This document shows positions 10,868-30,536 of a stretch of 64,000 nucleotides of DNA, one piece after another; position 1 is the stretch's first letter; every line of letters starts with the position of its first letter. The translations under genes were made by a program, and so were the position numbers. The stretch comes from Thalassotalea sp. HSM 43 (lineage in GTDB: Bacteria > Pseudomonadota > Gammaproteobacteria > Enterobacterales > Alteromonadaceae): contig NZ_CP038493.1 in NCBI RefSeq assembly GCF_004752005.1, forward strand, positions 2,566,302-2,630,301. Direction: 5' to 3'. The notes under the pieces are model-generated. The model saw only the letters and a list, made by a program, of their open reading frames with translations. It ran no database searches and had not been told where the DNA came from.

Positions 10868-10920
10868 TGTCAATTATTGTGCATAAATTAGGCATGTGAG
10901 TTTTTTTCATAAAAAAGAGG

Positions 10921-10949
10921 TTGCCATAGCCAAGGATGCGCTATATTAT
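10921..10949 (+). promoter_or_regulatory. Promoter of the tRNA-Phe transcription unit
   Basis: TTGCCA (10921-10926) and TATTAT (10944-10949) are separated by exactly 17 bp, and a GC-rich discriminator (ACGCGC) follows. That layout is typical of stable-RNA promoters under stringent control. It would transcribe the tRNA-like remnant first and then tRNA-Phe. Confidence 0.72.
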
Positions 10950-10976
10950 ACGCGCACTTCAAGGAAATACCTTGTT

Positions 10977-11024
10977 GTCTAGCTCAGTCGGTAGAGCGAC
11001 TTGGAATTACACTGAAATTCCAAG
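10977..11024 (+). pseudogene. tRNA-like remnant ending in a 9-bp hairpin
   Basis: GTCTAGCTCAGTCGGTAGAGC is a normal tRNA D-arm region, identical in AGCTCAGTCGGTAGAGC to the tRNA-Phe downstream. It is followed not by a standard anticodon arm but by a perfect hairpin: CTTGGAATT (11000-11008), a 7-base loop, AATTCCAAG (11016-11024). No T-arm or acceptor stem follows before tRNA-Phe starts at 11050. It is best read as a broken tRNA copy, or as a structured leader of the tRNA transcript. Confidence 0.6.
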
Positions 11025-11049
11025 GGATTTAAAGTTAAAACCGAGATTT

Positions 11050-11125
11050 GCCCAGATAGCTCAGTCGGTAGAGCAGGGGATTGAAAATCCCCGTGTCGGT
11101 GGTTCGATTCCGCCTCTGGGCACCA
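11050..11125 (+). tRNA. tRNA-Phe (GAA)
   Basis: The 76-nt gene starts GCCCAGA and ends TCTGGGCACCA, giving a 7-bp acceptor stem and an encoded CCA. The D-arm is AGCTCAGTCGGTAGAGC, the anticodon arm GGGGA-TTGAAAA-TCCCC gives anticodon GAA, and the T-arm is CGGTGG-TTCGATT-CCGCC. It is a complete normal tRNA-Phe and the source of the repeat modules that follow. Confidence 0.98.
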
Positions 11126-11130
11126 TATAT

Positions 11131-11158
11131 AAAAAACCAGCCTTATGGCTGGTTTTTT
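11131..11158 (+). terminator. Terminator of tRNA-Phe (type A)
   Basis: A 12-bp perfect stem AAAAAACCAGCC / GGCTGGTTTTTT with loop TTAT starts 5 bp after the CCA end. The same hairpin recurs after repeat modules 1, 2, 3 and 6. Confidence 0.96.
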
Positions 11159-11219
11159 GCTTTCTAGACTTCGTTTTTTTAATTTAACTTTTAAGCTTAC
11201 TAACATTACTTAGCTAGAT

Positions 11220-11330
11220 CCCTGTCGGTGGAACCGCCTCTCGGCAATTGCTCCCTGCATTGCTCTACCTCCTGCATCCATGCAGTCGTGGGCACCATAT
11301 ATAAAAAACCAGCCTTATGGCTGGTTTTTT
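11220..11330 (+). repeat. tRNA-derived module 1 with type A terminator
   Basis: The core is 11220-11297 and the terminator stem-loop 11303-11330. This is the only copy besides module 6 with CGGTGG, the exact tRNA-Phe T-stem strand; the other four have CGGCGG. The bases before it are AGAT rather than AGAG, so the GCCC/GGGC closing pair is lost. Confidence 0.88.
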
Positions 11331-11408
11331 GCTTTCTAGGGTTCGCTTTCTTTAATTGGGTTTTAAGTTTACTAATAATACCTAGCTAATTACTAAAGTA
11401 AGCTAGAG

Positions 11409-11519
11409 CCCTGTCGGCGGAACCGCCTCTCGGCAATTGCTCCCTGCATTGCTCTACCTCCTGCATCCATGCAGTCGTGGGCACCATATATAAAAAACCA
11501 GCCTTATGGCTGGTTTTTT
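11409..11519 (+). repeat. tRNA-derived module 2 with type A terminator
   Basis: The core is 11409-11486 and the terminator 11492-11519. The preceding palindrome (11382-11406) pairs CTAGC with GCTAG and TTACT with AGTAA. GCCC at 11408-11411 can pair with the terminal GGGC, leaving ACCA single-stranded as in a tRNA. Confidence 0.88.
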
Positions 11520-11597
11520 GCTTTCTAGGGTTCGCTTTCTTTAATTGAGTTTTAAGTTTACTAACAATACCTAGCTAATTACTAAAGTAAGCTAGAG

Positions 11598-11708
11598 CCC
11601 TGTCGGCGGAACCGCCTCTCGGCAATTGCTCCCTGCATTGCTCTACCTCCTGCATCCATGCAGTCGTGTGCACCATATATAAAAAACCAGCCTTATGGCT
11701 GGTTTTTT
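11598..11708 (+). repeat. tRNA-derived module 3 with type A terminator
   Basis: The core is 11598-11675 and the terminator 11681-11708, with the upstream palindrome at 11571-11595. The 3' end reads GTGTGCACCA instead of GTGGGCACCA, the one copy with a changed acceptor-like strand. Confidence 0.88.
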
Positions 11709-11786
11709 GCTTTCTAGGGTTCGCTTTCTTTAATTGGGTTTTAAGTTTACTAATAATACCTAGCTAATTACTAAAGTAAGCTAGAG

Positions 11787-11899
11787 CCCTGTCGGCGGAA
11801 CCGCCTCTCGGCAATTGCTCCTTGCATTGCTCTACCTCCTGCATCCATGCAGTCGTGGGCACCATCATTCCAAAAGCCCGCTATTTTTAGCGGGCTTTT
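11787..11899 (+). repeat. tRNA-derived module 4 with type B terminator
   Basis: The core is 11787-11864 and the upstream palindrome 11760-11784. The terminator is a different hairpin, AAAAGCCCGCTA / TAGCGGGCTTTT with loop TTTT (11872-11899), although the core is nearly unchanged. Confidence 0.88.
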
Positions 11900-11939
11900 C
11901 TCGTTTCTACGCCTAGCTGATTGCTAACGTTAGTTAGAG

Positions 11940-12052
11940 CCCTGTCGGCGGAACCGCCTCTCGGTAATTGCTCCCTGCATTGCTCTACCTCCTGCATCCA
12001 TGCAGTCGTGGGCACCATCATTCCAAAAGCCCGCTATTTTTAGCGGGCTTTT
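11940..12052 (+). repeat. tRNA-derived module 5 with type B terminator
   Basis: The core is 11940-12017 and the type B terminator 12025-12052. The upstream palindrome (11913-11937) contains CTAACGTTAG. The shorter spacer gives the 153-bp period. Confidence 0.88.
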
Positions 12053-12092
12053 CTCGTTTCTACACCTAGCTGATTGCTAACGTTAGCTAGAG

Positions 12093-12203
12093 CCCTGTCG
12101 GTGGAACCGCCTCTCGGCAATTGCTCCTTGCATTGCTCTACCTCCTGCATCCATGCAGTCGTGGGCACCATATATAAAAAACCAGCCTTATGGCTGGTTT
12201 TTT
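12093..12203 (+). repeat. tRNA-derived module 6 with type A terminator
   Basis: The core is 12093-12170 and the terminator 12176-12203. The upstream spacer is of the type B kind (palindrome 12066-12090) but the terminator is type A again, so spacer and terminator types have been reshuffled. Confidence 0.88.
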
Positions 12204-12278
12204 GCTTTCTAGGCTTCGTTTTTAAGAGATGCTTTTTAGGCACAGCTTTCTAGGCTTCATCACTATACAAGTGTGATA

Positions 12279-13085
12279 TTAGTAATGCTGTTTAATAAAA
12301 CGATTGTAAGCATCCTTGTCTATGAGGCACATACCGGCGTCGTCAAATCGTTGTAGGTCTTCCTGGCTTGGAAAGCTAAAATAGTTACCTTGCCCTTGCT
12401 GCGGTAGCGCCGATATCGTTTCTTCATTATTTATGGCGTTAATCGCTTGCAATATATCCTGGCTGCCTTGTTGGTATAGGCTTAATACTTGAGATAAGTA
12501 ACATGCCTGTGGATCTCTTGCTTGTTTGGATATTTTGATGACGTTACCTGTGTCGATATTACCGTCACTTATAAAGTGTAATGTTGTGCCTATTTCAGAT
12601 TCATCGTTAAGCATTGCCCAAAACGTTGCCATCACCCCGCGATAGTCAGGTAAGATCCCAGAGTGGAGGTTGATAACGCCTTTACTGGCAGCACGTATTG
12701 CTGGTGGTTTTATGATACAGCCATAGCGGATAGAGACAATAAGATCCGGCGCTAGCTTGTTCAGCTTTGCCAGCGATTCGTCGTGATTAATGTTATTGAC
12801 CAACTCGATTGGTGATTGCAAATAAGGAGTCAATTGTTCAAACGACACGTACTTACTGTGTGCTTCTGGCTGTTTTGAGGGCGTCGTTTGAACGGGTACT
12901 AAATCATCCCAATGTTGCTCAAACTGCTTTAAGTTTTGCAGCGCGTCTGGGTGTTGTTGTGTACGTTTACCAACAGCACTTGATAAGTACAAATTCAGCC
13001 TGTGTTGCTGCGCTAAACTGGGTAAAATTTTGTTGAGACAAACATTCGCGGCAAGATCTTTATTCGCGACAAATACAATATTCAT
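12279..13085 (-). CDS. Formyltransferase-family protein
   Basis: The 268-residue protein has a formyltransferase fold of the methionyl-tRNA/GAR formyltransferase type. The catalytic triad is visible: N139 and H141 in GVINLHSGILPDYRG and D174 in FISDGNIDTG. It lacks the C-terminal tRNA-binding domain of Fmt and is shorter (Fmt is about 315), so it more likely formylates a small molecule or sugar amine. It stands alone on the minus strand beside the tRNA repeat array, with no pathway neighbours that reveal the substrate. The first about 110 residues are divergent. Confidence 0.8.
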   Translation of the reverse strand: MNIVFVANKDLAANVCLNKILPSLAQQHRLNLYLSSAVGKRTQQHPDALQNLKQFEQHWDDLVPVQTTPSKQPEAHSKYVSFEQLTPYLQSPIELVNNINHDESLAKLNKLAPDLIVSIRYGCIIKPPAIRAASKGVINLHSGILPDYRGVMATFWAMLNDESEIGTTLHFISDGNIDTGNVIKISKQARDPQACYLSQVLSLYQQGSQDILQAINAINNEETISALPQQGQGNYFSFPSQEDLQRFDDAGMCLIDKDAYNRFIKQHY

Positions 13086-29552: not shown

Positions 29553-29574
29553 GTAACGAAACCGGCCACAACAT

Positions 29575-29611
29575 CTATTCAGCTATTCAGCTATTCAGCT
29601 ATTCAGCTATT
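29575..29611. repeat. 8-bp microsatellite, 4.6 copies of CTATTCAG
   Basis: Four perfect CTATTCAG units (29575-29606) and a partial fifth lie between the converging ends of kynB and the LysR gene, 5 bp from the LysR stop. Such repeats can slip, but this one lies outside both genes. Confidence 0.9.
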
Positions 29612-29615
29612 AGGC

Positions 29616-30536
29616 TTACGAGCTGAAATGACTTAAAGCCGTTGCTAATAAATTCGCTGGCGCCTGAATGTTTTCACGTTTGGCGAATGCCAAATGCCAA
29701 TACACATGCAATCCATCGCTATTAACCTTAGCGGTGCGAATGTTGTGGCTATTCTTGTATGGTAATAGCAAGTGCTTCGACATGATGGAAATACCCAAGT
29801 TAACATTAACCAGCTCAATAATGGCGTCATTAAAACCAACCTGCATTACCTTTTTAGGAATGATGTTATTGGGCTTGAAGAACAGCTCATATTCGCGGTG
29901 TTTCTCGGGTACCGTTGAATTGGTGATGTAGGTTGACTGTTTAAAATCTTCAATGTCTAAGTGTCTTTTACTCGCCAATGGGTTGTCATTACTCAAACAC
30001 ACCATAAGCTCATCGCGATGAATAAACATCGACTGATATTGGCTTTCATCGATTTTTAGGTTTTGGTTATCACTGCAAATCAAGGCGATATCAATATCAC
30101 CGTTATATAGCGCATTTAGTGGTTGCAGCTGCGCGTTGGCATTAATTTCCAATTCAACCTGTGGCATATGCTTGGCAAATGCCTGAATGGTTTCTGGCAA
30201 CCATTTAAAAGATGAATAGTTTGGTAAACCTAAGCGAACCACTTGTTCAACACCGTCGGTTAAACGCGCAATATCGTGTTCGACCCGTGCCAGCTCTTCT
30301 AATATCTTATTGGCTGAATGCAATAAGCGTTTACCGGCAGAAGAGATGATCAGTTTGCGTCCTCGTCTTACGAATAACTCGGTATTCAAGCGTCGCTCGG
30401 CTTCTCTGATGCGATTGGTTAACGCCGGTTGGGTGATAAACAAACGTTCAGCAGCCTCTTTCACTGTTTCTGACTCAGCGATGGTACTGATCATTTTTAA
30501 ATGACTGATATTGAGCTGACTTTTGGCAAGATCCAT
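29616..30536 (-). CDS. LysR-type regulator of the tryptophan/aminomuconate cluster
   Basis: The 306-residue protein has an N-terminal winged helix-turn-helix (LKMISTIAESETVKEAAERLFITQPALTNRIREAERRLNTELFVRRGRK) and the LysR substrate-binding domain. It is divergent from mhpD and inside the catabolic cluster, so it probably controls these genes in response to a pathway intermediate, comparable to NbaR. Pseudomonas kyn genes instead use the Lrp-type KynR. A dyad at 30570-30584 is its likely binding site. Confidence 0.9.
   Translation of the reverse strand: MDLAKSQLNISHLKMISTIAESETVKEAAERLFITQPALTNRIREAERRLNTELFVRRGRKLIISSAGKRLLHSANKILEELARVEHDIARLTDGVEQVVRLGLPNYSSFKWLPETIQAFAKHMPQVELEINANAQLQPLNALYNGDIDIALICSDNQNLKIDESQYQSMFIHRDELMVCLSNDNPLASKRHLDIEDFKQSTYITNSTVPEKHREYELFFKPNNIIPKKVMQVGFNDAIIELVNVNLGISIMSKHLLLPYKNSHNIRTAKVNSDGLHVYWHLAFAKRENIQAPANLLATALSHFSS

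Follow-up and report, generated by a model that had tools for sequence, protein, structure and literature searches.

The rtT repeats, for which a role in the stringent response has been suggested, have been described mainly in a single E. coli operon, tyrT, from which the rtT RNA is released. E. coli K-12 carries repeats of the final 19 bp of tRNA-Tyr 3′ of tyrV, at a spacing of 178 bp, and one such copy between tyrT and tyrV. rtT-like elements belong to the BIMEs (PMC2965389), and RNAs of the RtT family adjoin tRNA genes in a Pasteurellaceae species, with expression detected by RT-PCR (PMC4986893). Other described systems relevant here are the RrA, RrB, and RrF RNAs of E. coli, expressed read-through RNAs that lie between dual rRNA terminators (PMC8144298), and the CGTC-type REPs, which have loops of 4 to 5 bp (PMC3733652).

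A tandem array located directly 3′ of a tRNA-Phe gene was analyzed in a 64,000-nt stretch of the Thalassotalea sp. HSM 43 genome (the window; coordinates given without a locus number are window positions, and all features of the array are on the plus strand). The tRNA-Phe (GAA) gene lies at 11050 to 11125 (ARAGORN; Rfam RF00005). As had been claimed in the original prediction, it is followed by six modules, and the cores, first described as 78 bp long from 11220, are 79 nt long and begin at 11219 when the initial G/T is counted. They are located at 11219 to 11297, 11408 to 11486, 11597 to 11675, 11786 to 11864, 11939 to 12017, and 12092 to 12170, and Tandem Repeats Finder assigned the array periods of 189 and 153. 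Any two cores differ at 1 to 3 of 79 positions, with 5 of the 79 columns variable overall. Cores 1, 2, 4, 5, and 6 end in GGGCACCA, and core 3 carries a single G-to-T change that gives GTGCACCA. Upstream of the gene, k-mer scans revealed a decayed partial copy of tRNA-Phe (10975 to 11049) that includes an exact block, TAGCTCAGTCGGTAGAGC, at 10980 to 10997. The sole promoter-like site between 10900 and 12300 lies farther upstream at 10921 to 10949 (TTGCCA, 17, TATTAT), a consensus match not above shuffled expectation.

Each core has its own terminator, as was first proposed, with a stem of 12 to 13 bp and A/T tracts. The stem-loop after tRNA-Phe (type A; 11131 to 11158) is part of a 42-nt sequence that recurs after modules 1 (11303 to 11330), 2 (11492 to 11519), 3 (11681 to 11708), and 6 (12176 to 12203) and is identical in all five copies. 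Modules 4 (11872 to 11899) and 5 (12025 to 12052) end in a type B terminator, the AGCCCGCTA stem of which is also present 3′ of tRNA-Tyr in the same genome; the type A hairpin is also found 3′ of tRNA-Phe in three other genomes (G006, G013, and G005). Only type B was flagged by a pattern scanner, because the scanner counts T residues outside the stem only. The spacers of tRNA-Phe and module 1 differ at 13 of 46 positions, versus 0 of 42 positions for the terminators.

Next, the composition of the core was examined. The derivation of its T-stem and 3′ end from tRNA-Phe, and hence the link to that gene, held up, and these two ends are the only tRNA-Phe-derived parts: on the left, TGTCGGTGG-AA-CCGCCTCT represents the T-stem with its loop shortened to AA, and on the right is GGGCACCA. 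The inner 49 nt, CTCGGCAATTGCTCCCTGCATTGCTCTACCTCCTGCATCCATGCAGTCG, are not tRNA sequence; they are a dispersed palindromic element, located at 11240 to 11288, 11429 to 11477, 11618 to 11666, 11807 to 11855, 11960 to 12008, and 12113 to 12161 in modules 1 to 6, respectively. A reverse-complement D-arm origin had been proposed for TTGCTCTACC. This origin was rejected, since TTGCTCTACC belongs to the dispersed element and a D-arm source is therefore unnecessary.

Dispersal of the core in genomes with no link to tRNA genes had been put forward as an outcome that would argue against a tRNA-derived array. The inner 49 bp are indeed dispersed; the whole core is bound to tRNA-Phe, and no other copy is present in the 4.01-Mb single-contig genome outside the tRNA-Phe array. 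Copies of the inner 49 bp were found in 14 of 17 Thalassotalea genomes, at up to 20 per genome and mostly distant from tRNA genes across the genus, and the 23-nt half of the element (≤1 mismatch) has a patchy distribution, occurring in 16 of 296 genomes of the order. The copies found in the HSM 43 genome itself adjoin three stable-RNA genes only: tRNA-Phe (six copies), tRNA-Thr (seven copies, reversed, with a 48-bp period), and one 5S rRNA gene. A tRNA gene was located by ARAGORN within about 1.5 kb at just three other inspected element loci, namely, the HSM 43 tRNA-Thr array and the modules 3′ of tRNA-Phe in G013 and G005. The HSM 43 tRNA-Thr locus (L015, 4680 to 5300; C1:400680-401300) holds tRNA-Thr-derived modules and the seven-unit 48-bp array, which terminates in GTCGGCACCA and a terminator; related modules lie 3′ of tRNA-Thr in G013 (L167) and G008 (L184).

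Copies from the HSM 43 genome and its relatives were combined in a 69-copy alignment. The two hairpins of the element covary, with 8 of 10 pairs changed on both sides and 91.9% of cells paired; none of 500 shuffles scored as high, and slid controls scored far lower. The element and its hairpins are equally conserved away from tRNA genes. Most of the 69 copies sit in the loop of a palindrome, GAGGTCCCGGC..GCCGGGATGACG, with a CGTCAT tag, and in this they resemble the CGTC-tagged REPs (PMC3733652). However, the dispersed copies have a loop of 48 to 49 bp formed by a hairpin pair, as opposed to 4 to 5 bp in CGTC-type REPs, and the tRNA-Phe modules hold the insert without the CGTC stem or its tag. 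Neither Colwellia nor Idiomarina is named in the main text of that REP survey (PMC3733652). In G013 (L033, 1430 to 1915), three tandem 169-bp units each consist of a CGTC palindrome with the 49-bp element as its loop. In T. mangrovi and T. litorea (L058, L064, and L065), tRNA-Phe is followed by a candidate REP-associated (Y1-type) transposase ORF, recognized by eye and preceded by TAGACACCCA repeats. Mobilization of the 49-bp element by a RAYT transposase was therefore considered, but these repeats differ from the element.

The search for the core beside tRNA-Phe in related genomes, suggested at the outset, yielded matches in G013 and G005. Each has one orthologous module at the same site, directly after the tRNA-Phe terminator, with 89 to 90% identity and with paired hairpin changes; in G013, a second, different module follows the first. 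Near full-length core matches in the genus were confined to G000, G013, and G005, a tRNA-Phe-linked whole core is known in three species, and the module was absent from the other tRNA-Phe neighborhoods among those listed. The flanking DUF1289 protein is just 64 to 65% identical in G013 and G005 despite the shared module.

The parallel with E. coli tyrT/rtT drawn in the original prediction proved closer than first indicated. In both systems, tandem units 3′ of a tRNA gene each end in the 3′ end of the parent tRNA (GGGCACCA in all six window modules, one with the G-to-T change), and the filler is palindromic. The window differs from E. coli in that each module has its own intrinsic terminator and the filler is another palindrome, and many isoacceptors are affected in Thalassotalea. 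The region from 10900 to 12300 had no match to RtT (RF00391) at an E value of ≤10, and membership of the window modules in that family was thus rejected: they have the same architecture as rtT but are not members. The BIME link of rtT (PMC2965389) fits the palindrome-in-tail composition of the Thalassotalea units. The HSM 43 tRNA-Tyr array (L082, 5648 to 5942) resembles rtT more directly, with 19-nt tail repeats and a GGATGAGAACC start. It scored 21.5 to 21.7 bits over the full RF00391 model, below the gathering cutoff of 45 (E. coli controls scored 133 to 138 bits), and the closing stem of the RF00391 alignment is preserved by paired changes. This similarity suggests that the tRNA-Tyr array may be a distant relative of rtT in the Colwelliaceae. 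Its filler is not dispersed in the HSM 43 genome, and extra tRNA-Tyr tails were rare among 119 genomes of the family, indicating that the Tyr array is not widespread.

To place the tRNA-Phe array among other tRNA loci of the genus, exact matches of at least 12 nt to the local tRNA outside the gene were counted as blocks, with chance expectation estimated by searching the same DNA for the other tRNAs. Four Thalassotalea genomes contained 98 blocks, compared with about 2.5 expected; as blocks that belong to the same array depend on each other, the counts describe a pattern and carry no P value. In the HSM 43 genome, 28 tRNA neighborhoods yielded 25 blocks (1.2 expected) at nine loci: Met, Phe/Thr, Ser, His, Tyr, Arg, Pro, Leu, and the window Phe. 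Among the tRNA matches listed, the three relatives had 15 (0.5 expected), 24 (0.4), and 34 (0.3) blocks, at 4 of 16, 5 of 14, and 9 of 13 loci; these fractions are samples. G131, a distant member of the order, had one block at 20 loci (0.2 expected). Blocks from the 3′ half made up 69 of the 98, of which 57 were downstream of the parent gene, 12 were in between, and none was upstream, and 49 of the 98 blocks ended exactly at CCA. The left edges of the tails ranged from −38 to −14, and some tails started in the T-loop (Tyr, 19 nt; Pro, 18 nt). Retro-copying of the tRNA from the CCA end, considered because many tails end at CCA, was dropped because the left edges are not sharp.

Multitail arrays were found 3′ of Val and Lys in G008 and 3′ of Arg in G003, and the Met and Lys arrays contain intact tRNA copies that alternate with truncated ones. 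The variability of the T-arm-to-CCA block was compared with that of the rest of the unit in four arrays; it was lower in Val (P = 1e-4) and His (P = 9e-4) and not lower in Lys and Arg. The filler of the tRNA-Arg module includes a palindrome that is dispersed at 15 further places. An Rfam scan of nine further tail arrays returned tRNAs and subthreshold matches only, with no RtT, and no description of multi-isoacceptor tail arrays was found in the openly licensed literature searched. Other repeats were also noted. Four tandem 78-bp pseudo-tRNA-Phe units (L072, 1203 to 1512), like the window unit at 10975 to 11049, precede the second tRNA-Phe gene of the HSM 43 genome. The tRNA-Ser (GGA) gene has three almost identical units of 111 bp on its 5′ side (L073, reverse strand, 1056 to 1388), and every one of them opens with the first 21 nt of this tRNA. 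In the window, a short tandem repeat of CTATTCAG units (29571 to 29624) overlaps the end of a minus-strand ORF (29616 to 30536).

We consider it probable that the tRNA-Phe array consists of rtT-type tRNA-tail repeats, which formed by decay of tandem tails, uptake of a palindrome, and amplification. The starting point would have been a duplicate of the tRNA-Phe 3′ portion, together with its terminator, behind the gene. This copy would have shed its 5′ half and T-loop, and the 49-bp dispersed palindromic element would then have been inserted between the T-stem and the acceptor end. Tandem duplication, presumably by recombination or slippage, would have amplified the resulting unit of palindrome, tRNA tail, terminator, and spacer, at a period of 189 bp and later of 153 bp, with the terminator switched once in the process. 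Tandem tRNA copies probably arise and decay in the same way at many Thalassotalea tRNA loci. The composition of the units and their place, polarity, and recurrence in related genomes are directly visible; the order of events is a reconstruction. Two observations count against this explanation. Exact 3′ ends are retained more than neutral decay predicts in the Val and His arrays, where the low variation of the tails could reflect gene conversion from intact copies or selection, and the module has persisted, with paired hairpin changes, beside a protein as divergent as DUF1289.

The original prediction had raised the possibility of small tRNA-like RNAs, or of decoys for enzymes that process tRNA; such decoys would have a closed stem resembling that of an acceptor and a free ACCA end. 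RNA folding confirmed the predicted GCCC/GGGC pairing in modules 2, 4, 5, and 6 (probability of about 0.9) and its absence from modules 1 and 3, which are unable to form the stem, and a tRNA-Thr module of G013 has a six-pair closing stem. However, chance alone would be expected to supply a 4-nt complement to GGGC (P = 0.64), and a set of 18 modules representing nine isoacceptors showed no enrichment of acceptor complements over shuffled filler (combined P = 0.47). The closing stem is thus not above chance, and the selected tRNA-like closing stem was rejected. RNase P recognizes a coaxial acceptor/T-stem; in the modules, the inserted hairpins part the T-stem from the acceptor end, and therefore a coaxial stack of this type cannot form. 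We regard decoy RNAs as highly improbable. A different RNA-based account, in which the modules would be small-RNA genes reached by leakage of the tRNA terminators and would yield growth-rate-linked RNAs or sponges of RNA-binding proteins or small RNAs, appears unlikely on this analysis, yet it draws on several features: the modules lie between successive terminators and share their site in three species, the hairpins of the inner element covary, and the cores and terminators are near identical while the spacers differ. The location resembles that of RrA, RrB, and RrF, which likewise occupy a short stretch of a stable-RNA operon flanked by consecutive terminators, with access by read-through only (PMC8144298), and the RtT-family RNAs of the Pasteurellaceae (PMC4986893) offer a second precedent. 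Unlike the array, RrA, RrB, and RrF are neither tRNA derived nor tandem, and their expression has been demonstrated. The core folds are ordinary (z-scores of −0.7 to −2.0), the closing stem is broken in two modules, and the element and its hairpins are no less conserved away from tRNA genes. No promoter-like site was found inside the array, and any RNA would therefore require read-through of one to six terminators in series. A small tRNA-like RNA function was accordingly not borne out by the stems, the folds, or the promoter search. An extension of this idea to the genus, in which rtT-like units would give short hairpin RNAs that track tRNA synthesis and feed back on growth, with palindromes as exchangeable filler, seems likewise unlikely.

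The tails might instead be integration scars or landing pads, left when integrases that recombine in the T-loop or 3′ half of tRNA genes displaced old 3′ ends downstream and the inserts were later lost. Such an origin would account for 3′ halves that all lie downstream or in between in the same orientation, for the half of the blocks that end at CCA, and for the tails that start in the T-loop. It is nevertheless improbable. A scan of eight proteins that flank the array in the window (sulfate permease, DUF1289, formyl transferase, beta-helix, cytochrome c-like, SSB, one without a Pfam match, and methyltransferase) revealed no integrase, transposase, or other mobile-element gene. Moreover, the left edges of the tails are scattered, the near-identical tandem units within an array point to duplication, and the upstream 5′-half arrays (second Phe and Ser) would need a second mechanism.

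If the array indeed arose as rtT-type tail repeats, its main effect on the cell would be backup termination, with at most a short-lived read-through RNA. The tail arrays of the genus are best explained by an rtT-type organization that extends over many isoacceptors, and this plan is present at between one-quarter and more than one-half of the sampled tRNA loci in four species, at differing isoacceptors. tRNA tails with an intact CCA carry a risk of confusion with tRNA-like genes or attachment sites. The dozens of independent arrays constitute a repeated natural experiment by which by-products of tRNA turnover may be distinguished from palindrome carriers and from sources of RNA.
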